DNA from: Aureococcus anophagefferens | Taxonomy: Eukaryota > Sar > Pelagophyceae > Pelagomonadales > Pelagomonadaceae | Length of the DNA stretch: 64,000 nucleotides | Assembly (NCBI RefSeq): GCF_000186865.1 | Contig: NW_008705570.1 | Span: 261,261 to 325,260, forward strand | Direction of reading: 5' to 3' | Shown here: in pieces, positions 7,109 through 56,863 of the stretch | Layout of the letters: each line of letters opens with the position of its first letter | Numbering within the stretch: the stretch's first letter is position 1 | The notes under the pieces: generated by a model | Seen by the model: the letters and a program-made list of their open reading frames with translations, nothing else | Databases searched by the model: none | What the model was told of the DNA's origin: nothing | Program-made: the position numbers and the translations under genes

Positions 7109-8808
7109 TTGACGTGCACGACGATGATGTTGGGCGGACTGTTGGGCAGCAGCCTCGGCGCCATCCTCTGGTGGCTCGCAATTTGCACGTCCGGCGTCGA
7201 CCCGAGCCAGCCGCTGCCGTCGCAGCTGCGGAAGATGGCGCGCAACAAGAACCACTGCGGCGCGCCCGCGAGCGACTGCGCCTTCCTGGGCCCGCCGGCG
7301 AAGTACACGGGCCGCTACGCCGTCTTCATGGCCGGCCGCGTGCGCGTCGCCCACCTCGCGCTCCAGAAGGCCAAGGCGCTCATCGCGCGGCGCTACGCCG
7401 GAAAGATCCGCGTCGACTGGTACGCGCACGTCTGGTACAACGAGTCGTCGCTCTGCGAGCGCCGCGCGCTCGAGGAGCTCACGGCCATCGCGACGGCGAT
7501 CACGACGGAGCCCGTGGCCTGCATGTGGAGCTGGGGCGAGACGGGCTTCGTCAACCAGTGGCACGGCGTCGACGGCGCCTTCCAGACGCTCCTGCGCTTC
7601 GGAAAGCTCGACGACTACACGCTGGTCCTCAAGACGCGCGTCGACGTCGCCTACGACGACCTCGACTTCGAGGCGCTCTGGGCCCGCTACGGCGCCTCGG
7701 CGTCGGCGAACGCGAGCGGCGGCCACTTCATGGTGCTCGGCGCGTCGTCGGGCTGGGACGTGCACATGGTCGGCACGCCGCCGCCCGCGTGGAAATCAAA
7801 TCTTCAACTCGACTTCAATATGAGCGTATTCGAATGTTTTGACACGAGCACATCCGCCGTGCTTCGCGAACTCGATGAGAGCCATCGATCCGTCCAAAAA
7901 TCAGCCGAATCGACTTCGATGTGACCGAGCTAGAGCATTTCAAAGTTTGGTCGGGACGTCCCAAACCGGTGGTTGTTTCCCACACAGGCCGCCGCTCGCG
8001 CGCGCGATGGCGGGCTACGGCCTCCGCAGCGGCTACGCCTGCGACTCGTCCATGGACTCCTTCCCCTGGCAGCGCATGCGCCGCTACGGCTGCTGGCCGC
8101 CCGTCGCGGACGCGGCCCAGGACCCCGTGCTCCGGGGCCGCAGGGCAGCAAAAGAGAGCGAAATTCCCAACTTCAAAGGCTCCTTTCTCGGCCGTTTTCC
8201 ACTCGTTTCGGCTGATTTTTGGACGAGCGATCATCTCTCGGAGCGGTCTCGAAGCGTGGGCGTTTTTTTCCGGAACTTGCGCGCGCGGAACACTCAAGTT
8301 GAAGCGTTGAATCACCCTTTTGCTGCCCAGGCCGCTCGCGGACACGCTGCGCGTCATGTGCCGCGACACCGCGGGCGCGGCGCCGCGGTGCGCGCCCCTC
8401 TTCGTCGACCACTTCCCGAGCGTCATCAAGCGGCCCATCGCCCTCGCCATCAACCCGGACACGGAGCCGCGCCTCGGCTGCGCCGGCCGGCGCCTCGGCG
8501 ACGCCGCCGCGCCGCGGCGCCGGCTCCCGGCGTCGCGGGGGCCGAAGTGGGTCATGCCCGAGAGCCGCTTCTGCGACGCCCACCGCCACGACGTCTACTA
8601 CGTGTCGCCCAACGCGACGCTCCGCCACCGCGGCGACCAAGGCCGCGCGGCGCCGCGCGCGACCTGCCCGCCGGATTGCGCGCCGGAGCCGCCCGCGGAC
8701 GAGGCCCACCTCCTTCAGGCGGCGCGGCAGAGCGCCGACCGCCGCGCGGGCCTCCTCGCCGCCCTCTCGACGCCCGAGACCCGCGCCGCGTCGAAGGTAG
8801 CGCGCTAG
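7109..8808 (+). CDS. Secretory-pathway glycosyltransferase-like protein, copy 1
   Basis: Proposed exons 7109-7776, 7988-8128 and 8331-8808; an ATG at 7124 is an alternative start. The N-terminus (MMLGGLLGSSLGAILWWLAI) is a signal anchor, so the protein likely acts in ER or Golgi. The body has conserved blocks shared with the next gene: GPPAKYTGRYAVFM, WYNESSLCERRALEEL, a VDVAYDDLDFEALW acidic block that could bind a metal-nucleotide sugar, and C-terminal DAHRHDVYYVSP. I infer a glycosyltransferase-type enzyme; the exact family is not recognised. Two introner insertions interrupt it. Removing the first restores perfect alignment with the downstream paralogue. The second is placed by paralogue length, with a GC donor at 8129 and an imperfect target duplication. 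Confidence 0.68.
7785..7987 (+). mobile_element. Introner element, long family subgroup B, sense
   Basis: A 203-bp insertion inside the coding sequence, flanked by the 8-bp duplication GCCGCCGC (7777-7784 and 7988-7995). It contains the shared core TCCAAAAATCAGCCGAA and ends in TTTCCCACACAG. Its left end (CGTGGAAATC) is an eroded mirror of that terminus. The predicted intron is 7777-7987: the donor GC is the start of the left target duplication and the acceptor CAG is carried by the element. Confidence 0.88.
8137..8330 (-). mobile_element. Introner element, long family subgroup A, antisense
   Basis: About 194 bp, bounded by GGGCAGCAAAAG near 8143 and CTTTTGCTGCCCAG at 8317-8330, which are inverted copies of each other. 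The shared core lies on the minus strand, so the element is reversed relative to the host gene and to the copies at 34.1 and 55.6 kb. The acceptor CAG again comes from the element end. The left target copy is degraded and the right reads GCCGCTCG, so the exact left edge and donor (GC at 8129) are less certain. Confidence 0.8.
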
Positions 8809-8903
8809 GAAAGGTTCGCTGGGAGCTCGGAGGCCAAAGCTGCCCATCGTCGTCGGCTTCGTGCTGCGGGCTTGCACCGGTCGTCGCGGCGGGCAGCCTC
8901 GTA

Positions 8904-10106
8904 ATGATGCGTCGCGCCCCCGTGCGGTGGCTGGCGCTGTGGCTGGCGTGCACGGCGGCCCGCGAGGTGAACCGGAGCGCGCCCCTGCCGACGCAGCTCA
9001 AGGCGTTCCGGGCCAAGAGCTGCCCCGAGATCGACTGCGACCACCTGGGCCCGCCGGCGAAATACACGGGCAAGTACGCCGTCTTCATGTCGGGCCGCCT
9101 GCGCGTCGCCCACGCCATGCTCACGGCGGCCATGAAGCAGATCGAGGACAAGTACAGCGGCTCGATCACCGTCGACTGGTACCTCCACGTCTGGTACAAC
9201 GAGACCGCGCTCTGCGAGCGCCGCGCGCTCGAGGAGCTGCGGACCATCGCGACGGCGATCACGACGGAGCCCGTGGAGTGCATGTGGAGCTGGGGCAACG
9301 GCTGGCAGAACCAGTGGCACGGCGTCGACTTCGCCTGGCGCACGCTCGAGCGCTTCGGGGACCCGGACCAGTACACGCTGATATTGAAGTCGCGCGTGGA
9401 CGTGTCCTACGACGACCTCGACTTCGAGGCCGTCTGGAAGCGCTACGGCGCGGCGCCGGCGACGAAGGCCGCCGGCGGCCACTTCATCGTCTTCGGGCGG
9501 TCCCAGGGCTGGGACGTGCACATGATCGGCACGCCGCCGCTCGTGAGGGCGATGGCGCGGTACGACATGAAGCCGGACCCGTTCCCGACCTACGGCTGCG
9601 ACTCGACCATCGACTCCTTCCCCTTCCAGCGCATGTTCCGCTACGGCTGCTGGCCGCCGACGGCGGACCCGGCGCAGAAGCCGCTCTACCGGAAGTTCTA
9701 CGAGACCGCGACGAAGCGCGAGTCCCGGGGCCTCGAGCCCCGCTGCGCGCCCCTGTTCGTGGACGTCTTCCCCTCGTCCATCAAGCGGCCCTACCCCTTC
9801 CTCCTGAACCCGAACACGGACCCGCGCCTCGGCTGCAACGGCCGCCGCCTCGCCGTCGCCGACGTCGACAACGCGACGCGGCGCCTCGCGGCGCGCGTGC
9901 CCGACGGGTGGGTCATGCCCGACGACGCCTTCTGCGACGACCACCGCCACGACGTCTACTACGTGTCGCCGGGCGCGCACCACCACAGCGCGCACGGCGC
10001 GCAGCCCGCGGCGCGGTGCCCGCCCGCGTGCGCCGTCGACGGCCCGGCGACCTACGAGGAGCAGGTCACGGCCGCCGCCGCGGAGCTCCGGGGCGCGCCG
10101 GCGTAA
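8904..10106 (+). CDS. Secretory-pathway glycosyltransferase-like protein, copy 2
   Basis: Uninterrupted, 400 residues, starting MMRRAPVRWLALWLACTAA, a cleavable signal or signal anchor. It is a tandem duplicate of the gene ending 95 bp upstream, with the same blocks in order: GPPAKYTGKYAVFMSGRLRVAH, WYLHVWYNETALCERRALEEL, SRVDVSYDDLDFEAVWKRYG, FGRSQGWDVHMIGTPPL, CDSTIDSFPFQRMFRYGCWPP and HRHDVYYVSPG. Conserved cysteines suggest a lumenal disulphide-bonded domain. It carries no introners, so it serves as the internal control for intron removal in copy 1. The enzyme activity is inferred, not shown. Confidence 0.75.
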   Translation: MMRRAPVRWLALWLACTAAREVNRSAPLPTQLKAFRAKSCPEIDCDHLGPPAKYTGKYAVFMSGRLRVAHAMLTAAMKQIEDKYSGSITVDWYLHVWYNETALCERRALEELRTIATAITTEPVECMWSWGNGWQNQWHGVDFAWRTLERFGDPDQYTLILKSRVDVSYDDLDFEAVWKRYGAAPATKAAGGHFIVFGRSQGWDVHMIGTPPLVRAMARYDMKPDPFPTYGCDSTIDSFPFQRMFRYGCWPPTADPAQKPLYRKFYETATKRESRGLEPRCAPLFVDVFPSSIKRPYPFLLNPNTDPRLGCNGRRLAVADVDNATRRLAARVPDGWVMPDDAFCDDHRHDVYYVSPGAHHHSAHGAQPAARCPPACAVDGPATYEEQVTAAAAELRGAPA

Positions 10107-10118: not shown

Positions 10119-11952
10119 TTAGACGGGGTAGAACTGGCTGTGCGTGTCCGAGTAGTTCGGGTTCGGGCAGACGTGGTGGACGCGGTCGATCTTCCGGCAG
10201 AGCTCGGGCGTGATCTTCGCCACGTGGTCCAGCGCCTCGAGCTGGGCCTCGAGCTGGGGCGGGTCGCGCGCGCCGAGGATCGCCGTCGCGAGGAAGGGCC
10301 GCGAGTACGCGTACGCGAGCGACAGCTGGAGCACGGTCATGCCGTGGGCCTTGGCCAGTTCCTCGTAGTCCTCGGCGGCCTTGAGCGTCGCCGCGGACGT
10401 GTAGCGGCTCTGGAAGCCCGGCATGTTCTTGTGGCGCGCCTCGCCCGGAGGCTTTCGGCCGAAGCTGTACTTGCCCGCGAGCGTGCCGCCGCAGAGGACG
10501 CCGTAGGCGACGAGGCCCACGTCGCCGTGGAGCGGGCTGCAGGCCTCGGCGAGCTCCGTCTCGAAGCGCCGGTCGCACAAGCTGTAGTCGTTCTGGATGG
10601 ACGCGGGCGGCGGCAGGCCCTTGAGCTTGGCCATCGCGCAGAACGTCGCCACCCCATACGTCGTCTCGTTGGACACGCCCCAGGCCCGGATCTTGCCCGC
10701 GGCCATGAGCTCGGCCATGGCGTCGAGCTGCTCCTCGAAGCTCACGAAGGCGTGCTCCAGCGCGCGGTTGTAGCGCGCGCCCGTCTCGCCGAACTTCGGC
10801 ACGTAGCGGCTCGGCCAGTGCGTCTCGAGGAGGTCGATGGTTTCGACGCCGAGGCGCTTGAGGGACGCGTCGCAGGCGTCGATAATTTGTACTTTCGAAA
10901 GCTTCGCCTTCTTCGGGACGGGCTCGCCGGGCGCGAAGGGCCGCCCGAGGACGTCGTAGCGGCACGCCAAACTCGAGTTGCCGCCGTCGCCCGCGACCTT
11001 GGTGGAGATGACGACGGAGTCGCGGTCGATGGCGCGCACGCGGAGCCACTCGCCGAAGACGAACTCGGAGTAGCCGCCGCCCGTGATCGACGGGTACCTG
11101 TGTGGAAATCAACCAGTGAGCTGGGACGTCGGGGCCAAACTTGAGAATTCTCTAGCTCGGTCAAATCGAAGTCGATTCGGCTGATTTTTGGACGAATCGA
11201 TTGCTCTCGTCGAGTTCTCGAAGCACGGCGGATGTGCTCGTGTCAAAACATTCGCATACGCGCACATTGAAGTCGGGTTGAAGATTTGATTTGCACACAG
11301 GCGGGTACTGCTCCGCCATGTCGAAGAACGTGACGCCGCGCGCGTAGGCGAGGTCGAGCATCTCGAAGATCATGGCCCGCCGCTCGCCGAGGCCCTGGTG
11401 CGAGACGCCCATGAGCTCCGCGGCCCAGTTCGCGCCGCCGAAGGAGCAGACGGAGACCCGCAGCTCGGAGCTCCCGAGCTTCCGGTACGCCATGCCCTTC
11501 TTTTCGCCGCCGGGCAGCGGCGGCGCGAGGGAGTTGATCTCCGGCGGGCTCATGGCCATGAGCCCGGCGCCCTCCTCCTGCGCGTCCTGCGTGTAGTCGA
11601 TGCAGATGTGCACGTCCTCGATGATCTTCTTGTGCTTCGCGCGGTAGCGGACGAGCGTGCGGCCGGCGATGAACCGCACCTCCTGCGCGACGACGCTCCA
11701 GAGCAGGTGCGCCAGGGACCGGCCGATCATGCCCCAGAGCCGCTTCACGTCGTGGACGAGGCCCGCGATGACGCCGAGGTCGAGCTCGTTGCTGAAGTGG
11801 GACGCGTTGGCGCTCTCCCGCGCGCGGAAGCTCCGCAGGTAGGCGCTCGACGCCTCGACCTCGGCGCGGATCGTCGCCGCGTCGGGCGTGTCCACGCCCT
11901 CGCGCCGCCCGACGATGGACTTGAAGTTCGCCTGACTCCGGTCCTCGGCCAT
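10119..11952 (-). CDS. Aldo/keto reductase with N-terminal extension
   Basis: Exons 11309-11952 and 10119-11097 give 540 residues. The C-terminal 390 residues are an NADPH-dependent aldo/keto reductase: MAYRKLGSSELRVSVCSFGG start, catalytic Asp and Tyr in FFDMAEQYP, Lys in VISTKVAG, His in LLETHWPSR, cofactor-loop residues in AILGARDP. About 150 residues precede the usual start. They contain a helical segment (VIAGLVHDVKRLWGMIGRSLAH) of unknown origin, so the reductase may be fused to another module, or translation may begin at the internal Met. The intron is an introner and its removal restores the standard AKR sequence at the active-site loop. Confidence 0.85.
11098..11300 (-). mobile_element. 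Introner element, long family subgroup B, sense
   Basis: A 203-bp insertion in the reductase gene. On the gene strand it begins CTGTGTGCAAATC and ends GATTTCCACACAG, near-perfect inverted termini. It is flanked by GTACCCGC and GTACCCGT, an 8-bp target duplication with one change. The intron is 11098-11308: the donor GT is the first two bases of the left duplication. It is the same length as, and closely similar throughout to, the copy at 7785-7987, including the core TCCAAAAATCAGCCGAA. Confidence 0.92.
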
Positions 11953-13233: not shown

Positions 13234-15573
13234 ATGATCGACCTCACCGGCTCGGACAGCGACGACGAGGCGCCCGCGCCGTCGCCCCAGCGCGCGCCGA
13301 AGCGCATGGTCGACCAGATCGACCTGACCGCGGACGACAACGAGGACGGCGCGCCGCGCAAGATGGCGCGGACGGCCGTCGACGTCGACTCGGACGCGGC
13401 GCTCGCCGCGGCGCCCGCGCGCCCGCCCTGCATCACGGAGTTCACCGAGGCCCAGCTGAAGGAGCCGCTGAAACTCCCCAACGGCCAGCCCAACCCGGCC
13501 CACCCGTGCATCATCTGGCGCAACTCGCTGCCGAAGAAGCGCCCCTTCACGGTCAAGCTCATCATCGACGACGCGGCGGCGCACCCCGCGGCGTGGGAGC
13601 ACTCCCACCGCGGCCCGCGGGCGGGCATCGGCAACGACGGCATCACCCTGTGCGTCACGTCGATCGTGGTGCAGGCCGCCAAGCCGAAGAACCCGATCCC
13701 CAAGATCATGGCGTGGCTCAAGAAGAACAAGATGAGCATCATCACCTACTCGCTCGAGGCCCACCGGAAGCGCAGCCGCAACGGCGGGCGCGTGGGCCGC
13801 GTCCTCCGCGCGCGCGCCGCGCCGCGCCGCGCCGGGACCCCCCACGCACGCAGGCTCCAGCGCGTGGCCAACCTCCGCGCCGCGGCCGAGGCCGCGGGCC
13901 TCGACCTCACGGCCGACGACTACTTCCACGGCCAGGCCCACGTCCTCACGACGGAGGACTCGTCCGCCGGCGGGCGCGCCGCCCGCGTCCTCCGCGCGCG
14001 CCGCGCCGCGCCGCGCGACCGGGACCGGCGCCATGCGCAGGCTCCAGCGCGCGGCCAACGTCCTCGCCGCGGCCACGGCCCAGGGCCGCGACGCGACGCC
14101 CGACGACTACTTCCACGGCCAGGCCCACGTCCTCACGACGGAGGACTCGTCCGCCGGCGGGCGCGCGGGCCGCGTCCTCCGCGCGCGCCGCGCCGCGCCG
14201 CGCGACCGGGTCCCCCCACGCGCGCAGGCTCCAGCGCGCGGCCAACCTCCGCGACGCGGCCGAGGCCGCGGGCCTCCCCCTCACGGCCGAGGTCTACGGC
14301 CTCGACCCGTCCGAGGGCGGGCGCGCCGCCCGCGTCCTCCGCGCGCGCCGCGCCGCGCCGCGCGACCGGGACCGGCGCCATGCGCAGGCTCCAGCGCGCG
14401 GCCAACGTCCTCGCCGCGGCCACGGCCCAGGGCCGCGACGCGACGCCCGACGACTACTTCCACGGCCAGGCCCACGTCCTCACGACGGAGGACTCGTCCG
14501 CCGGCGGGCGCGCCGCCCGCGTCCTCCGCGCGCGCCGCGCCGCGCCGCGCGACCGGGACCGGCGCCATGCGCAGGCTCCAGCGCGCGGCCAACGTCCTCG
14601 CCGCGGCCACGGCCCAGGGCCGCGACGCGACGCCCGACGACTACTTCCACGGCCAGGCCCACGTCCTCACGGACGAGGAAAGCTCCGCCGGCGCCAGCGC
14701 GGGCGGGCGCGCGGCCCGCGTCCTTCGCGCGCGCGCCGCGCCGCGCGACCGGGACCCGCGCTGCGCGCCGCGCGACCGCACCACCACGCGACGTGCACCG
14801 CCCGCGCAGGCTCTCGGCCTTCGCGCAGGGCAAGGGCGCCCACGCGCCCGAGAACAAGGGCAAGGGCGGGCGCGCCGCCCGCGTCCTCCGCGCGCGCCGC
14901 GCCGCGCCGCGCGACCGGGACCGGCGCCATGCGCCGCGCGACCGCACCACCACGCGACGTGCACCGCCCGCGCAGGCTCTCGGCCTTAGCGCAGGGCAAG
15001 GGCATCCACGCGCCCGAGCACTCGCGCGCGCAGCTCGACGCGTCCGGCGAGCCGCTCGTCCCCGCGGAGGTGCGCGAGAACAAGCGCCTGGACGGCATCG
15101 TCAACCGCGAAGCCATGAAGATCCTAGGGGAGAAGATGTCGAAGGACGAGCGCCTCGAGAAGTTCGAGACCGTCTCCGACCGCGTCGCGCTGAAACTGTC
15201 GGAGGACCAGCGCATCCAGATCCTCAATCCCATCTGCGACCGAATCCGGCACCTCGCGCTCAACAAGTGCGAGGGGACGGCGGGCGACAAGGCCTCCCGC
15301 GAGCTCGCCGACGCCCTCGCGGAGAAGATGCGCAAGGACGTCGGCGAAGTCCGCGACATGTACCCGAAGCCCGAGCCGCGGAAGCGCAAGGCCGCCGCCG
15401 CGCCCGCGTCCGCGACGCCGAGCTTCGCGGCGTCGGCCTTCGGCGCCACGGTGTCGCCGCTGCCGCTGACGTTCCTGTACGTCACGCGCGATGGCTGCTG
15501 GGAGATCTACGGCGACGCCTGGGGCCGCCGCTACCGCCGCAGCCGCTTCTCGGGGGATGGCTACCGGCTGTAA
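13234..15573 (+). CDS. SIM-containing protein with tandem 40-residue exon repeats
   Basis: Eight exons (13234-13787, 13854-13973, 14041-14160, 14228-14320, 14388-14507, 14575-14706, 14810-14869, 14976-15573) give 598 residues in one frame. The start MIDLTGSDSDDE and a second QIDLTADDNED are classical SUMO-interacting motifs, a hydrophobic IDLT core followed by acidic residues. Residues about 60-185 form a conserved-looking folded region. Five consecutive exons encode versions of a module beginning LQRAAN and often ending HVLTTEDSSAGG. Two short exons carry LSA(F/L)AQGKG. The C-terminal 200 residues are charged and helical, then KPEPRKRKAAAA. All seven introns are read as GC-AG in phase 2; only this choice makes the repeat exons multiples of three. 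A nuclear, SUMO-linked role is inferred. Confidence 0.62.
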   Translation: MIDLTGSDSDDEAPAPSPQRAPKRMVDQIDLTADDNEDGAPRKMARTAVDVDSDAALAAAPARPPCITEFTEAQLKEPLKLPNGQPNPAHPCIIWRNSLPKKRPFTVKLIIDDAAAHPAAWEHSHRGPRAGIGNDGITLCVTSIVVQAAKPKNPIPKIMAWLKKNKMSIITYSLEAHRKRSRNGGRVGRVLRARAAPRRAGTPHARRLQRVANLRAAAEAAGLDLTADDYFHGQAHVLTTEDSSAGGRAARVLRARRAAPRDRDRRHAQAPARGQRPRRGHGPGPRRDARRLLPRPGPRPHDGGLVRRRARGPRPPRAPRRAARPGPPTRAGSSARPTSATRPRPRASPSRPRSTASTRPRAGAPPASSARAAPRRATGTGAMRRLQRAANVLAAATAQGRDATPDDYFHGQAHVLTTEDSSAGGRAARVLRARRAAPRDRDRRHAQAPARGQRPRRGHGPGPRRDARRLLPRPGPRPHGRGKLRRRQRGRARGPRPSRARRAARPGPALRAARPHHHATCTARAGSRPSRRARAPTRPRTRARAGAPPASSARAAPRRATGTGAMRRATAPPRDVHRPRRLSALAQGKGIHAPEHSRAQLDASGEPLVPAEVRENKRLDGIVNREAMKILGEKMSKDERLEKFETVSDRVALKLSEDQRIQILNPICDRIRHLALNKCEGTAGDKASRELADALAEKMRKDVGEVRDMYPKPEPRKRKAAAAPASATPSFAASAFGATVSPLPLTFLYVTRDGCWEIYGDAWGRRYRRSRFSGDGYRL
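13788..14975 (+). repeat. Tandem exon-plus-intron duplication array
   Basis: Units of 187 bp, each a 120-bp exon and a 67-bp GC-AG intron. The units starting at 13974, 14321 and 14508 are almost base-for-base identical in intron as well as exon. Variant units have a 93-bp exon (14228-14320) or 132-bp exon (14575-14706). Two further introns of 103 and 106 bp separate two LSA-type exons. Identity of the introns points to recent unequal exchange or conversion. Confidence 0.8.
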
Positions 15574-19176: not shown

Positions 19177-19200
19177 ATAGCTTTAGGATTGAGCAATCGA

Positions 19201-19218
19201 TTTTGAGCGATTTTGCCT
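19201..19218 (+). promoter_or_regulatory. Conserved upstream element, unit 1
   Basis: TTTTGAGCGATTTTGCCT lies 84 bp before the ATG of the first MYND-RING-Sel1 gene. It recurs at nearly the same place before the other two copies (20602-20619 and, minus the first T, 21999-22015). AT-rich words are rare here, so retention suggests a promoter or start-region element, or simply recent duplication. Confidence 0.4.
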
Positions 19219-19301
19219 CGGCGCTCGCCCGATCGGAGGCCCGACGCGGGCACGAGACGAGGAGACGATCGGCGCTCAAGTGACCAAACGCGCTCAGAGT
19301 C

Positions 19302-20360
19302 ATGTCGTGGCGGGAGAAGAAGTTGGAGTATGAGAATCGCATGGCCCGAGCGAAGGGCAAAAAACTCGACACTCTCAAGACCTGCACGATCTGCGGCGCC
19401 GACAAGGCCAAGGCTTGCAAAGGGTGCGGCACGACGGCCTACTGTTCGACGGACTGCCAACGCATCGACTGGCGCGACCGGGGCCACCGGAAGGTCTGCA
19501 AGAAGATCCAGGCCGCGGAGGCGGCGAGGGCGGAAGCTCCGACGCGCCCGCCGTCGCCGCCGCGGGACGTGTTCTACGGCCCCGCGCCGCGGTCGCACGC
19601 CGACGAGATCCGCGCGCGCATCGCGGCGGAACACGAAGCCGCCCGGGCGCGGCGCGAGGCGAACCCGGAGCGGGACCCGACGTCGGCGCGGTTTGGGTCG
19701 CGGTGCCCGATCTGCATGGAGGACTGGGATGTGAATACTCCGAGCATGCTTCGCATCTGTTGCTGCCGGACGGTCTGCGAATCGTGCCAGGACAAGATCG
19801 GCACCGGCGCGTGTCCCCTCTGTCGTTTACCGTGCCCAAAAAACGAGGCGGAAGACCTCGCGCGTCTGCGCCGGCATGTGGAGAACGAAGTGCCTGAAGC
19901 GATTACGCATTTGGGAGACTCGTACCAGGAAGGTTGGTACGGCCTCGTGAAATCCGATAAGAAAGCCGCGAAAATTTGGAAGCGCGCCGTGGAGCTCGGA
20001 GACGTGGAGGCGATGGTATCTCTTGGGGAATTGCACCAGCGTGGAAGTGCCGTCAAGCTGGACAAAGAGAAGGCGGAGCGGCTGTTTCGCATGGCCGCAG
20101 ACCGGGGCGACGCGTGCGCGCAATCAAGTTTAGGGCTTTTACTTCACTCTGAGGAGAAACATGAAGAAGCATTCCGGTACGTCGCGCTCGCGGCGGATCA
20201 AGGCAGAACCTCTGCAGAGTCCAACCTTGGCGTTTGTTACAGGGACGGAGAAGGCACGGAAGTCGACCTCGGCAAAGCCAGATACTGGTTCGAGCGCGCC
20301 GCTGCCAAGGGCTCCGAGCAAGCGACAAAGAACCTCGCGCGCCTCGACGCGCAAGTATAG
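19302..20360 (+). CDS. MYND-RING-Sel1 repeat protein, copy 1
   Basis: 352 residues. A short basic N-terminus is followed by a MYND zinc finger (CTICGADKAKACKGCG...YCSTDCQRIDW...H...C, residues 27-67) and a charged helical linker. A RING-type finger follows (CPICMEDW...CCCRTVCESC...CPLCRLPC, about 134-177). Residues about 190-345 are Sel1-like TPRs with the A-x-x-x-L-G signature (AMVSLGELHQRG, AQSSLGLLLHSEE, AESNLGVCYRDGEG). Such proteins are probable ubiquitin ligases or scaffolds. It is the first of three tandem paralogues spaced about 1.4 kb. The start is fixed by the copy 2 alignment. Confidence 0.82.
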   Translation: MSWREKKLEYENRMARAKGKKLDTLKTCTICGADKAKACKGCGTTAYCSTDCQRIDWRDRGHRKVCKKIQAAEAARAEAPTRPPSPPRDVFYGPAPRSHADEIRARIAAEHEAARARREANPERDPTSARFGSRCPICMEDWDVNTPSMLRICCCRTVCESCQDKIGTGACPLCRLPCPKNEAEDLARLRRHVENEVPEAITHLGDSYQEGWYGLVKSDKKAAKIWKRAVELGDVEAMVSLGELHQRGSAVKLDKEKAERLFRMAADRGDACAQSSLGLLLHSEEKHEEAFRYVALAADQGRTSAESNLGVCYRDGEGTEVDLGKARYWFERAAAKGSEQATKNLARLDAQV

Positions 20361-20574
20361 CCTAAGTCTTCACGCAACGTCGTCGCCCGAGCCCGAGCTG
20401 CTGCGCTTGCGCGCGGGCGAGCTCGTGCTTGGCCTTGGCGTCGTCGTCGACCGCGTTCCGCCCCGCGCCGACCTTCGCGGTCTGGTGCGTCGCGTTCTTG
20501 AACGCGAAGCCCGCCGCAAGGACGACGACGCCGCCAAGGGGGGCATGGAGAACGACATGAGCGCGATGCTCTAG
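20361..20574 (+). pseudogene. Duplicated 3'-exon relic of a membrane protein, unit 1
   Basis: This tail downstream of copy 1 is homologous to 21749-21970 but carries indels that break the frame. The ending GGMENDMSAML and stop are preserved. It looks like a gene fragment carried along in the tandem duplication; the opposite strand is also open, so strand is uncertain. Confidence 0.35.
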
Positions 20575-20601
20575 GGGTGGGCTTTAGGCCGGGGGGTAAG
20601 A

Positions 20602-20619
20602 TTTTGAGCGATTTTGCCT
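20602..20619 (+). promoter_or_regulatory. Conserved upstream element, unit 2
   Basis: Exact copy of TTTTGAGCGATTTTGCCT, 71 bp before the copy 2 ATG. Confidence 0.4.
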
Positions 20620-20689
20620 TGCCGATCGAGGCCAGACGATCGACGAGGAGACGATCGCCGCGCTCGAGTGACCAAACGCGCGCAGAGTC

Positions 20690-21748: not shown

Positions 21749-21970
21749 CAGCCTAAGTCTTCACGCCGCGTCGTCGCCCGAGCCCGAGCTGCTGCGCTTG
21801 CGCGCGGGCGAGTCGTGCTTGGCCTTGGCGGGGTCGTCTTCGCCGCGTTCCTCTCCGCGCCGACCTTCGCGGTCTGGATTCTGGCGTTCTTGAACGCGAA
21901 GCCCGCCTGGCGCAAGGACGACGACGCCGCCGAGGGGGGCATGGAGAACGACATGAACGCGATGCTCTAG
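21749..21970 (+). pseudogene. Duplicated 3'-exon relic of a membrane protein, unit 2
   Basis: In one plus frame this tail reads a hydrophobic segment (VVFAAFLSAPTFAVWILAFL) followed by NAKPAWRKDDDAAEGG and MENDMNAML with a stop at 21968. That is the layout of a single-span protein C-terminus. No start is visible and the neighbouring unit is frameshifted, so I read it as a captured exon fragment rather than a live gene. Confidence 0.4.
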
Positions 21971-21998
21971 GGGTGGGCTAGGCCTGGGGGATTCTCAG

Positions 21999-22015
21999 TT
22001 TGAGCGATTTTGCCT
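21999..22015 (+). promoter_or_regulatory. Conserved upstream element, unit 3
   Basis: TTTGAGCGATTTTGCCT, lacking the first T of the other two copies, 69 bp before the copy 3 ATG. Confidence 0.35.
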
Positions 22016-22083
22016 CGCGCATCATGCGACCAGGTGGTGAGGAGAGGCAAAAGTGTCGCCCGCGCGCCGCCCCGCAAACGATC

Positions 22084-26300: not shown

Positions 26301-28098
26301 GACGTCGTACGCGGCGGCGGCGCCCGCGGTCGCGACGGCGACGCGCGACGCCCCGGGCCCGCGCGTCGCCGTCCAGGTCTCGCGGCGCCTCGGCCTCGGC
26401 GGCCGCGAGCGCCGCGCGCGCGTCGCCGGCGTCGCCGTCGGCGAGCGGCAGGGCGACGACCGTGCGCCCCGCGCGCCAGCGGTCGACGACGTCGCCGGGC
26501 GGCGCCGGCGCGCCGTCGGCGCCGTCGAGCTCGAGCCAGCGCGGCGCGACGAGGCCCAGCGCGCCGTCGCGCGCCGCGTCGAAGTAGAAGGCGAAGCCGT
26601 TGGAGAGCACGCAGGGCCGGTCGCACATGGCGAAGACGGCCTTGAAGCCGATGCCCTTGTGGCCCGTCGTCGCCGCGTCGCCGGCCTTCGTGGACGCGTT
26701 GACGTCGCAGATCGCCCGCACGTCCGCGGCGTCGAAGCCCGGGCGCTGGTTCGACGAGGCGAAGAACCAGGACCTGCGATTCAATCGAAAAGTGTGCGTC
26801 TTCGGCCATCTTGTGCCCTCCGCGGAGCACTCATTCGGAGAAACCGACCCGTCCAAAAATCAGCCGAAACGACTTCGATCTGCGGAAGTTTGGCTTTCCC
26901 GCGCGGCCTGGGACCCGCTCAGGCCGACCTCGAGCGCCGGCGCATCGACGCCGTCGTGCCGCGCGTCGTCGGCGTTCTGGAAGAGCTCGTGGAGGAAGTG
27001 GTCGCGGTGCTCGTAGAGGTCCACGGAGAGGCGCTCGGCCGCGGCGGCGAGGGACCGCTGGAGGCCCCGGGCGCCGGAAGCGACGGCCGCGGGGCAACCG
27101 GACAGGTCGACGTCGACGAGGCGCGACGCGCGGATCGCGTCGACGGCGCCGCGCGGCGTCGCCGCGGCCGCGGCGGGCGCGTCCGGCCCGGCGCGGGGGG
27201 CCGCGGGCGCGCCTTCGCCGCGCTTCGACCGCGCGTCGCGCGTCCGCGCCTCGGCCGCGGCCGCCGCGAGCGCGTCCTCGAGCTCGGCGACGCGCGCGGC
27301 CGCGGCCCGCGCGGCGACCGCCGCGGACTCCTCGAGCGCCGCGTACTTGGCGGCGGCCGCGGCGCAGCGGCTCACGGCGTCGGCGCGGGACCATTCGGCC
27401 GCGCGCTCGAGCGCGTCCGGCCGCGCGCGCTCGAGCGCCGCGAGGAGCTCCGCGCTCTCCGCGCCGCGGCGCAGGTCGCGGCGGGCGGCCTCGCCGTCGC
27501 CGCCGGCCGCGGTTATGTTGTCGTCGCCGTCGCCCGCGAGCGCGCGCCACGCCGCGGGCCGAAACGCGCCGCGCGCCTTCAGCGCCGCGTCGACCTCGGC
27601 GACGCAGAGTTGGCGGAGGCCGCCGCGCGCGGCCGCGGCCGCGAAGGCGCGCGACCGCGCGGCCGCGGCCGCGAAGGCGCTCGGCGCCGCGAGCGCGAGC
27701 CAGACGACGCAGCCGTTGAAGCGCGCGAAGACCGCGGGCTCGCCGTCGCCGGCGAAGAGCGCGGCGCCGACGTCCGCGCCGTCGCGGACGAGGCGCCGGC
27801 AGACCGCGTCGACGAGCGGGCCGGTGCGCGCGAGCCGCGCGAGCGTCGCCGTCGCCTCCGCGCGCGCGGCGCGCGCGTCCGCGGCGTCGCCGGCCGCGAG
27901 CGCGCGCTCGAGGCGAGTGGAGGGTTCGAGCACGACCCACGACAGGCGCTCCTCCGGCGGCGGCGGCGGCGGCGCGGGCTTGCCGTCGCCGACGCGCCGC
28001 TTCACCTCGTCGACGAAGCCCGTCGGGTTGCGCGCCTTGGCCGCGTTGCCGATGAGCAGCAGCCGCTTCTGGATGTCTGCAGCGGAGAGCTGCGACAT
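23352..28098 (-). CDS. NOV/sacsin-like large protein with GHKL ATPase domain
   Basis: Exon 1 is 26915-28098 and exon 2 runs from 26773 to 23352, split by an introner. The N-terminal 240 residues are helical. An HSP90-like (GHKL) ATPase follows: HRDHFLHELFQNADDARHDG (motif N1), the segment GHKGIGFKAVFAM (G-rich lid) and RPCVLSNGFAFYFDA. This is the variant typical of plant NO VEIN and sacsin-type proteins, which are chaperone-like. The remaining roughly 1,000 residues are Ala/Arg-rich helical repeats, ending in a GGKGRGGKGRGKGR tail. An apparent one-base frame change near 26385 separates the ATPase from the rest. Either a sequencing or assembly error or a real lesion would explain it; no good intron fits. 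Confidence 0.7.
26774..26906 (+). mobile_element. Introner element, long family, antisense and diverged
   Basis: The intron is 26774-26914 on the gene (minus) strand, 141 bp. The core TCCAAAAATCAGCCGAA lies on the plus strand at 26851-26867, so the element is reversed relative to the gene. Flanking copies GTCCCAGG and GTCCTGGT share only the first four bases, indicating an older insertion. The acceptor GAATCGCAG is provided by the element. Splicing gives LEVGLSG joined to SWFFASSNQRPGF, as expected in this ATPase. Confidence 0.75.
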
Positions 28099-32624: not shown

Positions 32625-35600
32625 ATGGCTGCGCAGCACATCTCCTTCGCCGTGCGCCTCGAGGAACCCGCCGCAACAGACGCCGGCGCCGCGCTGACGC
32701 GCGCCTTGAACGCCGACGGCGCGACGGTCGAGCGGACCTCGGAGACGAGCTACGTCGTCGCCTGCGATTTGCCCGACGCGTCCGAGGCCGCGGCGCTGCG
32801 CAACCGCGTGCTCAGCGGCGACTACGACCGGCGCGCGTCCGCCGCGCTCGGCGTCGCCGCGAGCGCGGACCGCACGGCCTTCGCGGAGGCCTACGAGGCC
32901 GCGCGCTGCGGCTCCGGCGAGACGCTCACGCCGCACCAGCGGGAGGCCCTCGAGGCCTGCGCGGCGGGCGTCGACGTGCACCTCAAGGCGCCCGCGGGCA
33001 GCGGCAAGACGCTCTGGGCGCTGCACCGCCTCGTCAACGAACTCAGAGGCGACGCGGGCCTCGCGGTCTTCGTCGCGCGGAATCGAGCGCTCGCGTGCTT
33101 CGCGGCGAAGTGGGTCCTCGCGCGCGGCTTGCTGGCGCGGCTCCGCGTGCTCGTCGAGCCCTTTGCCGCGGGCGTCCTCGCGCCCCGGGCGCGCGGCGGC
33201 CGCCTCGTGCTCGAGGCGCCGGACGACGGCGCGCGCGTCGCGTACCGCCTCGTCGTCGTCGACGAGGCGCACCACGTCTACGGCGACGACGCGCTCCGCG
33301 CCGCCGTCGAGGCGCTCGTGGCGCCGACGACGCGGCGCCTCCTGCTGAGCGACGTCAGCCAGTGCCGGTCGCGCCACGTCTTCTACCCGGCCGTCGCCGC
33401 GGAGGCGAGGCTGACCGAGGTCGTGCGCTGCTCGAAGCGCATCGTCGCCGGCGCCATGGCGTTCCAGCTCGGCGGGGAGCAGAAGCTGCTGACGACCTGC
33501 GCGCACGACGACGCGGGCCCGCCCCTCAAGAGCTTCCTCTTCGACGCCTCCGGCGACCGCTTCGCCGACTACGCGGCGCGCGTCCGCGACGCGCTCGGTC
33601 ACGTCGAAAACCAGTTCCCGGGCCTCGGCCTCGACGACCGCGTCGCGCTCGTCGTCCCCGACGAGCCCTTCCGCGCGGCGCTCGAGCGAGCGCTCGCGGG
33701 CGACGACGCCTTCGAGCTCGTCGACGCCGCGACGGCCGCGTGCCGCCTCGAGAGGACGTCGGAACGGCCCTGGCTCGTGCTCGACACCGTGGACCACATG
33801 GACGGCCTCGAGCGCCTCGTCGTCATCTGCGTCGGCCTCGACGCGAAGATCGACGACGGCTCGGCGGTCGTCGCGCGGCGGTCGCTGCCGGTGTCGAGCG
33901 ACGGGCGTGGTGTGTTTCGTCGCGCGCGCTTCGCCCGAAACCGCGAAGTCATCCGACGCGCTCGGTAGGTCGCTGCTCTACCGCGCGATGACGCGCGCGC
34001 ACCTCGTCGTCGTCGTCGTCAACGAGTTCGTCGCCGGCGGCTGGCTCGAGTTCCTCGGGTCCGTGCGCCTCCGCGAGGAGGAGCGCTTCGACGCGGCGAC
34101 GGAGCTCGCGCGGTCGCGGACGGCGGCGGGAAAGGGTGGTTAACGTCGCTTCAACGTGAATCTTCCGCGCGCGCGCGTTCCGGAAAAAGCATCCACGCTT
34201 CGAGAGCGCTCCGAGAGATGATCGCTCGTCCAAGAATCAGCCGAAACGAGTGGAAATCGGCCGAGATAGAAGTCGGGAACGTCGCACCCTTTCGCTGCCC
34301 AGGTCGCGGACGGCGGCCGCCGAGGGCGCGGTCCGCGCGGACGTGTCGCGGGCCGTCGTCGCGGCGCTCGGCGGGCCGGCGGCGGACGCCGTGCTCAACG
34401 AGCTCTGCGAGGTCGTGACGCGGCGGCTCGAGCGGTCCGGCCGCGGCGCCGCGGACGAGGCCGCCGCGGCCGTCCTCGAGTGGCGCGACGAGACGCGCGC
34501 GGCCGCCGCCGCCGTCGCCGCCGCCGCGGGCGCGGACGCCTACGGCGGCCGCGGCGACGCGCCGATCGACGCGCTGGGCGCGGCCGTGGCCCTCGCGCTG
34601 CGGAAGCGCGAGGCCGCGCGCGTCGACGTCGCCGCGCGGCGCGCGTACGCGTCGTGGCGCGACGGCCGCCGCGCGGCGCGGGCCCGGGCCTACTTTGCGG
34701 ACCTGGCGCCGCCGGCCGTCGCGGCCTTCGCCGCGAAGAAGCTCGTCGAGGGCTACGACGACGCGGACTTTGACCGCGGCGCCGACGCCGTCAGGGAGGT
34801 CTGGACCGCGGTCGACGCGGAGCTCCGGGAGCGGGTCCGAAACGCGGACCGCCCCGACGGCGACGCGGTCTACGCCGCGGCCGTGGCGGCGTTCTGCGCC
34901 GGGTCGCCCGTCGAGGCCGCCGTCGAGGCCGCCGCGCGGAACGCGGACCGCGCCGTCGCCGACGGCGTCGTCGAAGCGGCGGTCGAAGCGGCCATCGCCG
35001 CGGAGACGGGCGGCGGCTCCTTCCTCGGCTGGGGCGGCGAGACGTTCGCGCCCCTGAAGCTCGCCGGCCCCGCGGCGACGGAAATCCGCAAGAGCGTCGC
35101 CCGTCGCCACGGCATGCTCGACAATCCCGCGCCCGCCGGCGTCGCGCGGACCCGCGCGCCGCCCGGCGACGACGTCGCCAAGGCCGCGGCGAAGCCGGCC
35201 TGGGTCGCGAGCGTCGAGGCGTCGGCCCGCGAGTTCCGCAAGATGTGGGCCGCGGCCGAGGACGCGACGGAAACGGCGCTCGCGGCGGCCGCGGACGAGT
35301 TCGATTTGGACCTCGGCGCGCACGGCGACCTCTTCGAGGAGGCGACGGTGATGTCCTTCCTCCATTTTTTCAGCGGCGGCACGGGCCCGGACGACGAGGC
35401 GGAGCAGGCTCCTTGTTTCGCCCGCCGACTCGTCGAGGAGCGGTGCGCGCGGGAGAACGACGCGTCGGCGCAGGCCGCGCGCGTCGCCGCGGCCGTGCGG
35501 GCCGCCGCGGAGGCCGCGGCCGTCGCGCTCGGCGCCGGGGCCCTCGCGCGCCTCGAGGCCCGGGTCCGCCGGCGCTGGCGCGCGGGCGAGGACCTGGCGC

Positions 35601-37348: not shown

Positions 37349-39003
37349 CTAGGGCGGCGGCGGGCCCGGATCGTAGCGCGGCGGGTGCGGGTAGGGCGGC
37401 GGCGGGCCGCGCGGCGCGTCGTAGAGCGGCGGCGCGTCGCGGCGCGCGTCGTCGCCGCGGTCGTGGTGCGGCGGGTAGTGGGACCGGTAGAGCCACTCGC
37501 GCGACGCCTCGAGGGGCCCGCGCGGCACGTAGCCGCCCGGGTCGGCGCCGCGGTCGAAGGCGCCGCGCGGGTCGTAGCCGGGCCAGGTGTTCCGCGTCGC
37601 GCGGTAGGGGTCGTAGGCGCCCGGCGGCGGCGCGTCGAAGGGCGGCGGGTGGCCGGGGGGCGGCGGCGGCGCGCCGGCGCCCCCGCCGGGGGCGCCGTAG
37701 CCCGGCGCGAAGTCGCGGGGCGGCGGCGCGGCGGCGCCGCCCCCGGGGGCCCCGCCGTAGGGCGGGGCGTGGGGCGGGAAGGGCGGGCTGTAGGCCCGGG
37801 GCGCGTAGTAGGGCGGCGGCAGCGCGTCGTGGTAGGCGGCGTAGGCGCCCGGGTAGCCGCCGCCGCCGTAGCGGCCGCCGCCGAGGCGCTCTTCGAAGAA
37901 GCCGCCGCCGCGCGGGAAGACGTGCTCGACGTTGCCCATCTCGCGGCGCTTGTTGCGGCCCGGCGTGATGGGCCCGAGGATGGGCTCGTAGGGCGGGAGC
38001 ACGCCGAGGTCGTTGGTGAGGACCGGCGCGTCTTTCAGGCCCGCGGCGACGGCGTCGCGGACGTCGTCGTCCATGAGCCAGAGGCTCAGCTTGCCCTTGG
38101 GCGCGGACACGGGCTCCTTGAGCTCGATGACGGCGTCGACGACGTTGCAGACCGGGCCCTGGGCCCAGAAGGACCCGCCGCAGTTCTGCGGCCGCCGGCA
38201 CTCCTTCACGCGGAACGCGCCGACGATCGTCGCCTGCCACCTGCGCGGGAACGGGGCGATTCGACGCGAGCGTTCCGCGCGCGCGCGCTCCGGAACAAGC
38301 GTCGACACCGTTCCGAGGGACGATCGCTCGTCCGAAAATCAGCCGAAACGAGCGGAAAAGGCACGTCGCGCCCTGTTTCCCGCGCCGCCCGCCACGAGCG
38401 CATGAGCTCCTCCTCCGTCGGCAGGCGGCAGTCCGTGACGAGGCCCCGGTAGTCGCCCTCGAAGGCGCCCTTGCCCACGTGGATCGCGATCCAGCCGCCG
38501 CACGGCAGCCGGTACGGCCGGTTCTCGAGGACCTTCTTCCGCTTGAGGATGGCCCACGCGATGGTCGCGCCCTTGAAGGTCAGCGCCCGCTCGATCTCGC
38601 CCGGCGTCGCCGCGCCCTCGACGCGCTTCGGCTTCTTGCTACCCGCATCCTCCTCCTCGTCGTCGTCGTCGTCGTAGGCCCGCGGCCGCTTGTCCCCGTC
38701 GGCCGCCGCGGCGGCCGCCGCGGCCGCCGCGGCCGGCGGCGGCGGCGCGGCCACGGGCGGCAGCGCGCCCGGGAGCATCGGCGGCGCGCACCGCCCGCCG
38801 TCGTCGCCCTCGCCCGGCGCCTCGTCGACGGCCGCGCCGGCGCCATCCTCGGGGGCTGCCTCCCGGTCCTCGTCGTCGTCGCAAGGCAGGTCGCCGGCGG
38901 CGACGGAGCTCACCTCCGACGTCGACGCCTGGGGCGGGGGCGGGCTGCGGCCCCCGGCGAGCTCGTCGTCGGCTGCCCCGCCAAGGGGAATGCACGCCTC
39001 CAT
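37349..39003 (-). CDS. ASCH-domain protein with proline-rich tail
   Basis: Exons 38396-39003 and 37349-38240 give 499 residues. The first 125 residues are acidic and Pro/Ala-rich, with a DDDDDEEEDAGSKKPKR nuclear-signal-like segment. The ASCH (PUA-like) domain spans about 140-255: WAILKRKKVLENRPYRLP, GGWIAIHVGKG, then SWQATIVGAFRVKECR and CNVVDAVIELKEPV. ASCH domains are thought to bind RNA or modified bases. The final 200 residues are Pro/Gly/Tyr-rich low complexity (PPPYYAPRAYSPPF type) like RNA-condensate proteins. One introner separates the two halves of the ASCH core, and its removal restores ELMRS joined to WQATIVG. Confidence 0.75.
38241..38387 (+). mobile_element. Introner element, long family subgroup A, antisense
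   Basis: The intron is 38241-38395 on the minus strand (155 bp). The target duplication is GTGGCGGG/GTGGCAGG (7 of 8). The core (here TCCGAAAATCAGCCGAA) reads on the plus strand, so the element is reversed relative to the gene. The acceptor end CCCGCGCAG is supplied by what would be the element's other end. It is shorter than other subgroup A copies through internal loss. Confidence 0.88.
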
Positions 39004-53957: not shown

Positions 53958-54065
53958 TCATGTTGCCGTCGCCTCGGCGCGATGCTTTGACCAAAATTTA
54001 TTGCCCACCAATGCCGCACACCTGCGCGCCGCGCGCGCGAGCATAGGCTGCTACAGCAACTCGCG

Positions 54066-56863
54066 ATGCGGCGCCTCCTCTGCGCGCTCGTCGCGCTGGC
54101 GGCGCCGACGCGCGCCTACCAGGACCCCAACGCGACGGCGCAGCTGAAATACCTGCAAAACCACTGCGTCGCGGCCCCCTGCAGCGCCCACGGCCCCTGC
54201 GCGCCGCGCTTCGCCCGCGCGCAGCCCGGCGCGACCGTCGCGAGGGGCACGGCCTGGGTGATCACCGTGAAGCGCGTGCGCCGCGCGACGCAGAGCGACT
54301 GGGCGAACATGGAGCACTTTGCGGCGACGACGCTGCCGCAGTACGAGGAGCTCTGGCGCGGCCGGACGGGCGTCGACCACGTCGTGCTGCCGCAGGTCGC
54401 CGCGGCGTCGAACTTCGCGAGCGCGCGGGGCGCGGACACGGACTGGTTCAAGGAGACGGCCAGGGTCGCGTTCGCGGCGCTCCGGGCAAGAGCGAACCTC
54501 GCGCCCGCGCCAGCGGGCGACGGCTTCCTCGTCTTTCGCGACGGCCTGGGCCGGTCGACGTGCTACGAGCGCGTCGTCCACGCGACCTACGTGCCGAGGG
54601 CGACGTACCTGAGGGACCCCGACGCGACGCGCGCGTTCTTGGAAGCCGCGGACGGGCTCCACGGCGGCGGGTCCGTGGCCGACGCGGCGCCGTCGACGCG
54701 CCCGCCGCGGACCGTGACGTTGCTCCTGCGCTCCGCGAACCTGAACCGGCCGGCGAAGCGCGCGGGGCCCGCGTGGGCGAACTCGCGAGAGTTGGCGGCG
54801 TCGCTCGAGCGGTGGCTGTCCTCGGAGCACCCGGGCTGGGTTTTGCAGACCGTGGCCCTCGCCCACGCCTTCTCCTTCGCGTCCCAGTTCCGCACGGCGC
54901 AGCACTCGGGCGTGCTCGTGGGAGCGCACGGCGCGTCGCTGACGAACGGCGTCTTCCAAAGGGACGGCGCGGCGCTACTCGAGGTGCTCAACTGCGGCCA
55001 CCGGTCGAACACGTACCGCAAGCTCGCGACGAACCGGGGCCTCTTCTACGCGTCGGCGACGAAGGCGGGCCAGGGCCCGGGGGGCGCGGACTGCGGCAGG
55101 GACCTCGGCCGGCGCCACGTGGACACGCGGCGGTCGCTGCCGTTGGACGAGCTCCGGGGGCCGCTCTCGGCGGCCATCGCCGCCGTCGAGGCCAACCTGC
55201 CGCCGGCGACGCTCGCCGGCTGCGCGTCGCTGCTCCCGGCGGCCGGCGACCGGTCCGTCGGCGACGTCGACTCCCTCGCGGCGGCCCTCGAGCGGTCCGA
55301 CGCGCGCGGGGACGAGCGAAGGCGGCTCGGCGAGTGCGCGGCCTACCGGGCGGGCACCCTCTTCGCGACGCACGTCGCCCTCGGCGGCGACGACGGCGCG
55401 GACGTCGCCGCGCACCGGCGGCGGCGGACGTTCTTGCTCGCGGCCGCGGCCTTCGATCGCAGGGGCGGCGGCCTCGTCGACTCCTGGGCCATGAGCTTCT
55501 TCGTGGACAGCGCGGCCGTCGCCCTCGTCGAGGCGCAGCGCCTCGCGCGCCACGTGCTCTTCCTCCACGTGTCCAAGGCCGCGGGCACCAGGGCAGGAAA
55601 AGGGTGATTCAACGTCGCTTCAACGTGAGTGTTCCACGCGCGCCCGTTTCGGAAACAGCACCCACGCTTCGAGAGCGGTCCGAGAGATGATCGCTCGTCC
55701 CAAAATCAGCCGAAACGAGCGGAAAACGACCGAGAGAGGAGCCTTTGAAGTTGGGAATTTCGCACCCTGTTCCCGCCCAGGCGGGCACGTCGTTCTGCAA
55801 GCTCGCGGCGCGCAACAAGTGCGCGGCGCCGCCGAAATTCTCGACCATGTGGGACCCCGGCGACGGGCCGACCTGGGGCAACTGCGCGCGGGGGTTGAAG
55901 GTCGTCCACGAATCCGCGTCCAAGATCGGCAAGGGCCGCCGCGCGCGGTGCTCCGCGAAGGAGCTCGACTGCGCGCAGCGGCTCGCGGCCTTCAAGACGC
56001 GCGGCTACGAGCTGATGGCCGTCGAGCGCTGGGCCGACGCCGGCGGCGCCGTCTGCCCGTCGCCGGCGTCCAACAAGGAGGCGCTCTGGTACGCGACGGT
56101 TTTGCGGGAGCCGCTCGCGCGCGTCGCGAGCCACCACAACCACCTCTGGACGAAGACGCTGCGCACGGCGCCCAAGGCCGTCAAGGGCCGCACGCGGTCG
56201 AGCCGCAAGCCGGGCCTGTATTTCAAGGGCGTCTTCGAGGACGGCGGACCGGCGCCGTGCGTCGACCCGGAGGAGCTGCCGTTCTCCGTGGGCGCGCCGC
56301 ACCGCACGGGCTACGACTGGTCCATGGTCTGCGCCATGAGCTCCGACTACGCCACGCGGAGCCTGCTGGGCACGTCCTTCAGCGACCGGCCCTACGACGC
56401 GCGCGTGCCGCCGCGCGAGCCGCCGGACGCGCTGCTGCGACGGGCCAAGGACGCGCTCCTCGACTTCGCCGTGGTCCTCGTCGTCGAGCAGGCGTCCCGC
56501 GCCCGGAACGTCGTGCGCCACGGCCTGGGCTGGCGGCCCTTCTCGAAGGCGGACGTCTTTCCGACGATCGGCCGCGACGCGTCGAAATCCCGCAAGGTCG
56601 TCGCGGCGAACGCCACGGGCAGCGACCGCGCGCTGCTGACGCAGCACAACCAGCTCGACCTGGCCCTCTACGCCTTCGCCAACGACCTCTTCGACGCCGA
56701 CGTCTTCTTCTACGACAAGGCCGCGCACAGCGGCCTCTTCCGGGAGCCCATCGCCGACGCGCGGCGCCTCTTCTGCGGCTTCAACAAGGCGCCGCCGCCC
56801 GTCGACGAGGCCGCGGGCGACGACGAGGCCGACGGCTACGGCGAGGATCCGCCCGTAAGGTGA
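54066..56863 (+). CDS. GT61-like glycosyltransferase fused to a sulfotransferase domain
   Basis: Exons 54066-55580 and 55781-56863 give 865 residues. A signal peptide (MRRLLCALVALAAPTRAYQ) is followed by a DUF563/GT61-like domain: LLLRSANLNRPAK, then FRTAQHSGVLVGAHGASLTNGVFQ near residue 285, the family motif. After residue about 495 comes a sulfotransferase start, HVLFLHVSKAAGTSFCKLAARN, matching the PAPS 5'-phosphate loop (K..GTS). Later, TVLREPLARVASHHNHLW matches the 3'-phosphate R-x-P-x-x-R-x-x-S element. I infer a Golgi enzyme that adds a sugar and sulfates the product. The single intron is an introner exactly in the PAPS loop; without its removal neither domain is complete. Confidence 0.82.
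55589..55780 (+). mobile_element. Introner element, long family subgroup A, sense (best preserved)
   Basis: A 192-bp insertion with the perfect 8-bp duplication GCGGGCAC (55581-55588 and 55781-55788). Its ends CAGGGCAGGAAAAGGG and CCTGTTCCCGCCCAG are inverted repeats. The core appears as TCCCAAAATCAGCCGAA. The donor is GC (from the duplication) and the acceptor CAG (from the element), so the intron is GC-AG, 55581-55780. This copy is a useful type sequence for the family. Confidence 0.94.

Follow-up and report, generated by a model that had tools for sequence, protein, structure and literature searches.

Seven introns in a 64,000-nucleotide stretch of the Aureococcus anophagefferens genome (contig NW_008705570.1, positions 261,261 to 325,260 of the forward strand; hereafter the window, whose numbering is used unless another contig is named) are, with a probability that we put at about 0.95, introners whose acceptor is carried by the element and whose donor is co-opted from the target. 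These introns would derive from short non-autonomous DNA transposons of two families, A (192 bp) and B (203 bp), with terminal inverted repeats, which would insert with an 8-bp duplication of the target. The element would supply the 3' splice site, a CAG at one of its ends, and the GT or GC that opens the upstream target copy would serve as the 5' splice site. Removal of one target copy together with the element would restore the original reading frame exactly. Of the properties by which introners are recognized, the following were found in these data: near-identical introns, similar up to their splice boundaries, at non-homologous sites; target duplications and terminal inverted repeats (seven or eight of eight duplicated positions match in 95 of 116 copies); and, at the predicted sites, one splice site carried by the element and the other co-opted. 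The mechanism has been described in this species or a very close relative; the first-pass annotation of this DNA had called it known from Aureococcus and Micromonas. The phenomenon is thus already known in A. anophagefferens or its closest kin, and our finding is a rediscovery.

Introns of the window

Perfect duplications, with eight of eight positions matching, flank three introns, all in plus-strand genes. In intron 1 (7777..7987, family B), the donor copy GCCGCCGC (7777-7784) is followed by a 203-bp body (7785-7987) and by the exon copy, again GCCGCCGC (7988-7995). Intron 5 (34113..34302), a family A element with its acceptor at the right end, has GTCGCGGA both as donor copy (34113-34120) and as exon copy (34303-34310) on either side of its body (34121-34302), and the exon downstream falls in an open reading frame (ORF) with F-box and RCC1 repeats. 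Intron 7 (55581..55780), likewise a right-acceptor element, is the best preserved family A copy of the window; its 192-bp body (55589-55780) lies between GCGGGCAC as donor copy (55581-55588) and GCGGGCAC as exon copy (55781-55788).

Three further introns lie in minus-strand genes, so that their donor copies stand at the high-coordinate end. Intron 3 (11098..11308, family B), in an aldo/keto reductase gene, has its body at 11098-11300, its donor copy at 11301-11308, and its exon copy at 11090-11097; in gene sense the two copies read GTACCCGC and GTACCCGT and match at 7 of 8 positions. Intron 6 (38241..38395), a worn family A copy with its body at 38241-38387, has GTGGCGGG as donor copy (38388-38395) and GTGGCAGG as exon copy (38233-38240), again in gene sense and again matching at 7 of 8. 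Intron 4 (26774..26914) is worn and shortened and is assigned to family B through a 45-bp fragment; its body (26774-26906) lies between the donor GTCCCAGG (26907-26914) and the exon copy GTCCTGGT (26766-26773), which agree at 5 of 8 positions in gene sense. Intron 2 (8129..8330), back on the plus strand, is a family A element with its acceptor at the left end and its core on the minus strand. Its body (8141-8330) is followed by the exon copy GCCGCTCG (8331-8338), and a GC at 8129 is its putative replacement donor. Intron 7 is in phase 0, and the other six are in phase 2.

The first-pass annotation had described seven introns with a common core, six of them with readable duplications, and both descriptions hold. 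The 17-base core TCCAAAAATCAGCCGAA is present in all seven intervals, exactly in four and with one mismatch in three, and the six readable duplications divide into three perfect, two with 7 of 8, and one with 5 of 8 matches. Its statement that the left copy acts as donor is right where left means upstream in the sense of the gene, and has to be reversed for the introns at 11098, 26774, and 38241.

Over each of the seven junctions, the predicted splicing leaves at least one phase open. Open frames are frequent by chance in GC-rich DNA, and we judged the frame by GC content at codon positions: the frame with high third-position GC upstream (0.76 to 1.00) carries on in phase downstream (0.82 to 1.00) at all seven junctions. 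The two lowest values belong to the flanks of introns 1 and 2, which run into each other's intron. If the introns were retained, the coding frame would run into a stop within five of the seven and, for the intron at 38241, shortly past it in a shifted frame; the introns at 8129 and 38241 both shift the frame. The automatic scan placed wrong borders on 8129, 26774, and 38241, and at 55581 the right flank alone favored the opposite strand. These four introns were left out of the donor statistics below and are supported by codon-position GC and hand-checked borders.

Copy number and predicted co-option of donors

The core occurs 2,234 times exactly in the genome searched (49.05 Mb, 86 contigs; GC in 4-kb steps, 67 to 81%), and its reversed control not once. 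When up to three mismatches were allowed in a 264-kb sample, the core gave 57 matches and the reversed control none. The density in the window is roughly one copy per 9 kb. A search with the 8-mer CTGCCCAG was uninformative (2,616 matches genome-wide versus 4,014 for its reversed control).

The donor test drew on a 303.6-kb sample selected for exact cores, namely the window together with pieces of contig C1, 20 of them 10 kb long and 58 short. It contained 123 copies, of which 7 lay too close to the edge of a piece and were discarded. The 8-bp duplications that the annotation had suggested looking for are perfect in 79 of the 116 copies analyzed and match at 7 of 8 positions in a further 16. 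Coding strand was called only from the codon-position GC of the flanks, excluding both target copies. Of these 95 copies, 84 could be scored, both flanks agreeing with a margin of at least 5; only three of the seven window copies are among them.

On the coding strand, the duplication starts with GY (GT or GC) in 83 of the 84 copies, against 17.4 predicted from the local background in the same phase (P about 6e-58), and it does so in every one of the 68 perfect duplications that could be scored. The sole exception, L059, looks wrongly bordered. Predicted acceptors are AG in 82 of the 83 GY copies. GC provides 49 of the donors and GT 34; GT thus exceeds its availability (34 versus 19.1, z 4.1), yet GC is the majority. 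By comparison, GC donors make up 0 to 50% per introner family in the survey PMC9860276. Positions 3 to 8 of the duplication have no strong consensus, and intron phases (34/19/31) agree with the shares expected from the availability of GY (0.39/0.26/0.35; chi-square p 0.78). Both flanks independently agreed on a coding, splice-competent state in 85 of the 95 copies. Targets that do not begin with GY on the coding strand, and orientations that lack an acceptor, are almost absent from the sample, presumably purged by selection.

An empty paralogous site and database proteins

A tandem paralogue (9024..10033, plus strand), 80% identical to the gene that holds introns 1 and 2, is intronless at the site of intron 1. 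There it reads GGCAC-GCCGCCGC-TCG, with a single GCCGCCGC (9533-9540), and the predicted spliced sequence aligns to it without a gap. As far as sequence can show, intron 1 arose by insertion with an 8-bp duplication, and predicted splicing restores the interrupted sequence exactly. At the intron 2 site, the paralogue has a single GCCGCTC (9680-9686) in a less conserved stretch with gaps nearby; an empty site that documents intron gain was found at one site only.

Database proteins point the same way at two junctions. P0060 (540 aa, 99% identity) has the exact predicted junction 3, where the relatives P0064, P0065, and P0067 also have no extra residues, and P0088 (95% identity) is gap-free across junction 1. 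P0062 and P0063 have other sequence at junction 3, P0063 containing residues translated from an element, and P0089 lacks the part that precedes junction 1; public Aureococcus gene models are mutually inconsistent at introner junctions (P0061, P0062, P0063, P0066, and P0089). Taken together, the coding frames, the empty site, and the proteins with predicted junctions 1 and 3 argue that the elements are spliced.

Element families and their ends

Automated border finding on the 57 core matches of the 264-kb sample recovered perfect duplications in 37, of which 33 had plausible ends and length. The first-pass annotation had placed all seven introns in one long family. The core is indeed common to all, but consensus building splits the copies into A (192 bp), with ends C[A/T]GGGCAG...CTGCCC[A/T]G, and B (203 bp), with ends CTGTGTGGAAATC...GATTTCCACACAG; the families have the core and interior blocks in common and differ at their ends. 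In the window, 7777, 11098, and the 45-bp fragment of 26774 match B best, and 8129, 34113, 38241, and 55581 match A. Consensus similarity extends to the element borders, and the terminal inverted arms are about 14-16 bp long. The inverted ends that had been claimed for all seven introns stand out in the consensus and in copies that are better preserved, and are worn in 26774 and 38241. Both families are best described as non-autonomous, inverted-repeat elements, presumably cut and pasted by a transposase acting in trans.

In family A the acceptor is one-ended. Of 55 copies, 32 have CAG at the left end only and 20 at the right end only; 3 have it at neither end, and no copy has it at both. Of the 42 family A copies in the scored set, 40 have a single acceptor end, set by the second or next-to-last base and always on the coding strand; the remaining two are those with doubtful borders. 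On a tree built without the ends, left- and right-acceptor types cluster (4 changes versus about 16 in shuffles), although a single clade is not rejected (p 0.61) and the bootstrap values had not stabilized; the two types are probably mirror-image lineages. In the literature searched, which did not include Huff et al. 2016 or any supplements, we found no description of mirror-image subfamilies, and we claim no priority. These ends would fit descent of family A from an element bounded by CAGGG...CCCTG, where a single T to A substitution, at one end or the other, created the acceptor. In family B, 28 of 41 copies have a further acceptor at the end on the donor side, and the scored copies of this family lie in one orientation relative to the gene in 22 cases and in the other in 20.

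The arms of the inverted repeats co-vary within copies, at positions 9 and 11 in A and at positions 6 to 8 and 10 to 12 in B, each to a degree reached in 0 or 1 of 500 shuffles. Slid controls gave 1, 2, 1, and 0 co-varying positions in B and none in A (four slides). At position 2 of family A, none of 38 copies is paired. The co-variation of the arms points to selection for pairing or to several source lineages whose ends match, a reading to be taken with the caveat that descent of related copies from a few source elements can yield the same pattern.

A more far-reaching proposal joins these observations: a single base, second from either end, would determine the splicing polarity of family A while the remainder of the inverted repeat stays largely matched, single-base changes would switch the splicing strand, double acceptors would be kept out, and a P-type transposase would be the mobilizer. 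As a joint claim we consider this doubtful. Within it, the absence of double-acceptor forms from A contrasts with their presence in most B copies. If true, an introner lineage could switch the strand on which it is spliced by single-base changes.

Points against and competing explanations

Several observations weigh against the reading of these introns as introners with co-opted donors. Sampling by exact cores on contig C1 favors well-preserved copies. The strand was unclear for 11 of the 95 copies that match at 7 or 8 positions, and these were not scored; 8 of the 11 have GY. Four of the 95 lack GY on the called strand: L059, one copy whose flanks disagree, and two whose margins do not exceed 2. 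Only 10 of the 21 copies with 3 to 6 matches have GY and AG, the others often being worn or of doubtful borders. P0060 and P0088 derive from ENA contigs and could for this reason represent transcripts or intronless genomic alleles. Element 2 retains its exon copy GCCGCTCG and is missing the left (donor) copy, so that the co-opted donor asserted by the first-pass annotation is upheld in six of the seven introns of the window, this one being the exception, and in 83 of the 84 sample copies that were scored. In the region of intron 2, P0088 reads DPLLRGAPLADTL, P0089 reads DPVLRGAPLDTL, and the window allele reads DPV-PLADTL; the residues LRGA, present at the junction in both proteins, are wanting in the window allele. 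This allele seems to have lost about 8 bp, the original donor among them, and to use in its place the upstream GC at 8129, which keeps the frame. A difference in assembly could also account for the missing copy.

The remaining points against co-option bear on particular alternatives. If the element carried both splice sites, as proposed for an Aureococcus sp. family in Fig. 2F of PMC9860276, the internal GTGTGG of family B would be the donor, and the upstream duplication with four element bases (12 bp, in frame) would stay in the mRNA. Exactly four added residues, YPPV, are found at junction 3 in the NCBI models P0061 and P0066, which implies such an element-internal donor; P0060 and the relatives P0064, P0065, and P0067 lack them. 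At junction 1, the paralogue and most relatives of gene 1 are free of any insertion (P0089 lacks part of the region, and P0091 reads into the element). The internal GT is kept equally on the donor and acceptor sides (T at position 6 in 32 of 41 copies on both), and GY at the start of the duplication would be unconstrained, yet all 42 scorable B copies have it. We therefore regard an internal donor as improbable. Further still from what we observe are elements that are never spliced, that is, ordinary miniature inverted-repeat transposable elements that lie in coding or intergenic DNA and break genes. P0091 does read straight through the family B element at the intron 1 site, and element 2, read unspliced, meets no stop in the stretch tested, but its frame is shifted. 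The stops inside five of the seven introns and shortly after 38241, the frame shifts by 8129 and 38241, the open spliced frame with the same codon-position GC on either side, and an enrichment of GY that would have no reason absent splicing leave this explanation scarcely credible.

Spread through RNA, by reverse splicing and reverse transcription instead of DNA transposition, would account for the position of most sampled copies between coding flanks in a splice-competent state (the 85 of 95 with independently agreeing flanks). Reverse splicing, however, predicts neither target duplications nor insertion in both orientations, whereas the elements are flanked by 8-bp duplications of varied sequence and family B copies are oriented either way relative to the gene (22 and 20). 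The inverted ends, with their within-copy co-variation of the arms, also tell against it, and we judge an RNA route very unlikely.

Comparison with known systems

Introners of A. anophagefferens that carry one splice site and co-opt the other were reportedly described by Huff et al. in 2016 (Nature). According to later papers, Aureococcus introners co-opt splice sites and insert in both orientations (PMC10228655, second-hand), have direct repeats, constant-length inverted ends, and canonical splice motifs (PMC7789003, second-hand), and have a characteristic length of about 210 bp (PMC9481584). The window elements resemble them in species or very close relationship, length near 200 bp, inverted ends, direct repeats, co-opted sites, and both orientations; a difference is that 49 of 83 predicted donors in the sample are GC, in contrast to the canonical motifs of PMC7789003.

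The proteins of the window fit this assignment. Its sugar transporter is 86 to 97% identical, and its aldo/keto reductase 86 to 96% identical, to proteins named Aureococcus anophagefferens (some with partial query coverage, and excluding one paralogue each, at 41 and 49%). The same two proteins are 37 to 43% identical to those of Chrysophaeum taylorii and CCMP2097, both named as pelagophytes.

The wide introner survey PMC9860276 describes two families for comparison. Family 4 of Aureococcus sp. (Fig. 2F) is like ours in genus and in its 8-bp duplication, but there both splice sites are carried and 12 bp are added, whereas here the donor comes from the duplication and nothing is added. The introners of Symbiodinium microadriaticum (Fig. 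2B), compared by description only, similarly carry the 3' splice site and take the 5' site from the duplication, but they make a 4-bp duplication. The survey reports no homology beyond genus between introners of different species.

Search for a mobilizing transposase

Profile searches of the genome for hAT (PF05699 and PF04937) and KDZ (PF18758) transposases gave no match, and the control genomes gave none either; searches for MULE (PF10551) and Merlin-type (PF12762) transposases gave no match in the genome and matches in the controls. The reverse transcriptase domain RVT_2, used as a positive control, gave 14 matches, several in long open frames (contigs C41, C31, C49, C35, C1, and others). 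hAT elements are marked by CAGGG...CCCTG ends and nTnnnnAn duplications. The two ends of the family A consensus are CAGGG and CCCAG, and the duplications of the scored sample have no purine preference at position 7 (44 of 83), a comparison limited by the selection for GY that these duplications have already undergone.

The genome does contain a P-type transposase, which is not linked to the elements. The P-type profile PF21787 found one worn copy (contig C25, 178372-178818; L099:4873-5319), with three in-frame stops, all TAG, within the Pfam match; this profile had no match in the control genomes. Downstream, within this gene or next to it, is an introner-like stretch in the same orientation (L099, about 5669-5800; best block 81-84% identical to family A), which is weak evidence, since copies occur roughly once per 9 kb in the window. 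A search with a 140-aa open piece of the C25 copy found two further P-type copies on C2 and C11, at 29% identity. These are 100% identical to each other over at least 4.5 kb, the C11 copy (L100:1-4501) lying near a contig end, and because the identity covers the whole of that length their borders were not found. Their intact ORF encodes 563 aa, with matches to PF21787 and PF21788 below the curated cut-offs. The 8-bp duplication of the introners agrees with the P superfamily and is not specific, other superfamilies also making 8-bp duplications. PMC7776569 describes for the P-element superfamily both 8-bp duplications and non-autonomous deleted copies with inverted ends, to which our elements are alike; in contrast, the 4.5 kb read around one intact P-type ORF showed no introner ends. 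That a P-type transposase mobilizes the introners is a tentative idea, and an unlikely one on present evidence. The literature searched, again without Huff et al. 2016 or supplements, names no P-type mobilizer for introners.

Other repeats and matches

Outside the introner elements, the window contains long tandem self-repeats at 19199-23265 and 13783-14934 (75-84% identity). Comparison of the window with a 200-kb sample of C1 for other repeat families gave scattered weak matches only, in 14 window bins. Viral carriers were considered and rejected: the core is found in seven IMG/VR contigs, but homology there ends at 17 to 20 bases, so that these matches are attributed to chance.

Implications

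The locus is a clean worked example of introner insertion, with two elements in one gene beside an empty tandem paralogue, and it also offers one element whose donor has seemingly been lost and replaced. Nearly every scored donor in the 304-kb sample of the donor test is GY. Two features, the frequency of GC donors and the restriction of the family A acceptor to one end, provide simple hypotheses that can be tested with RNA data. That introners generate new introns on a genomic scale is well supported.

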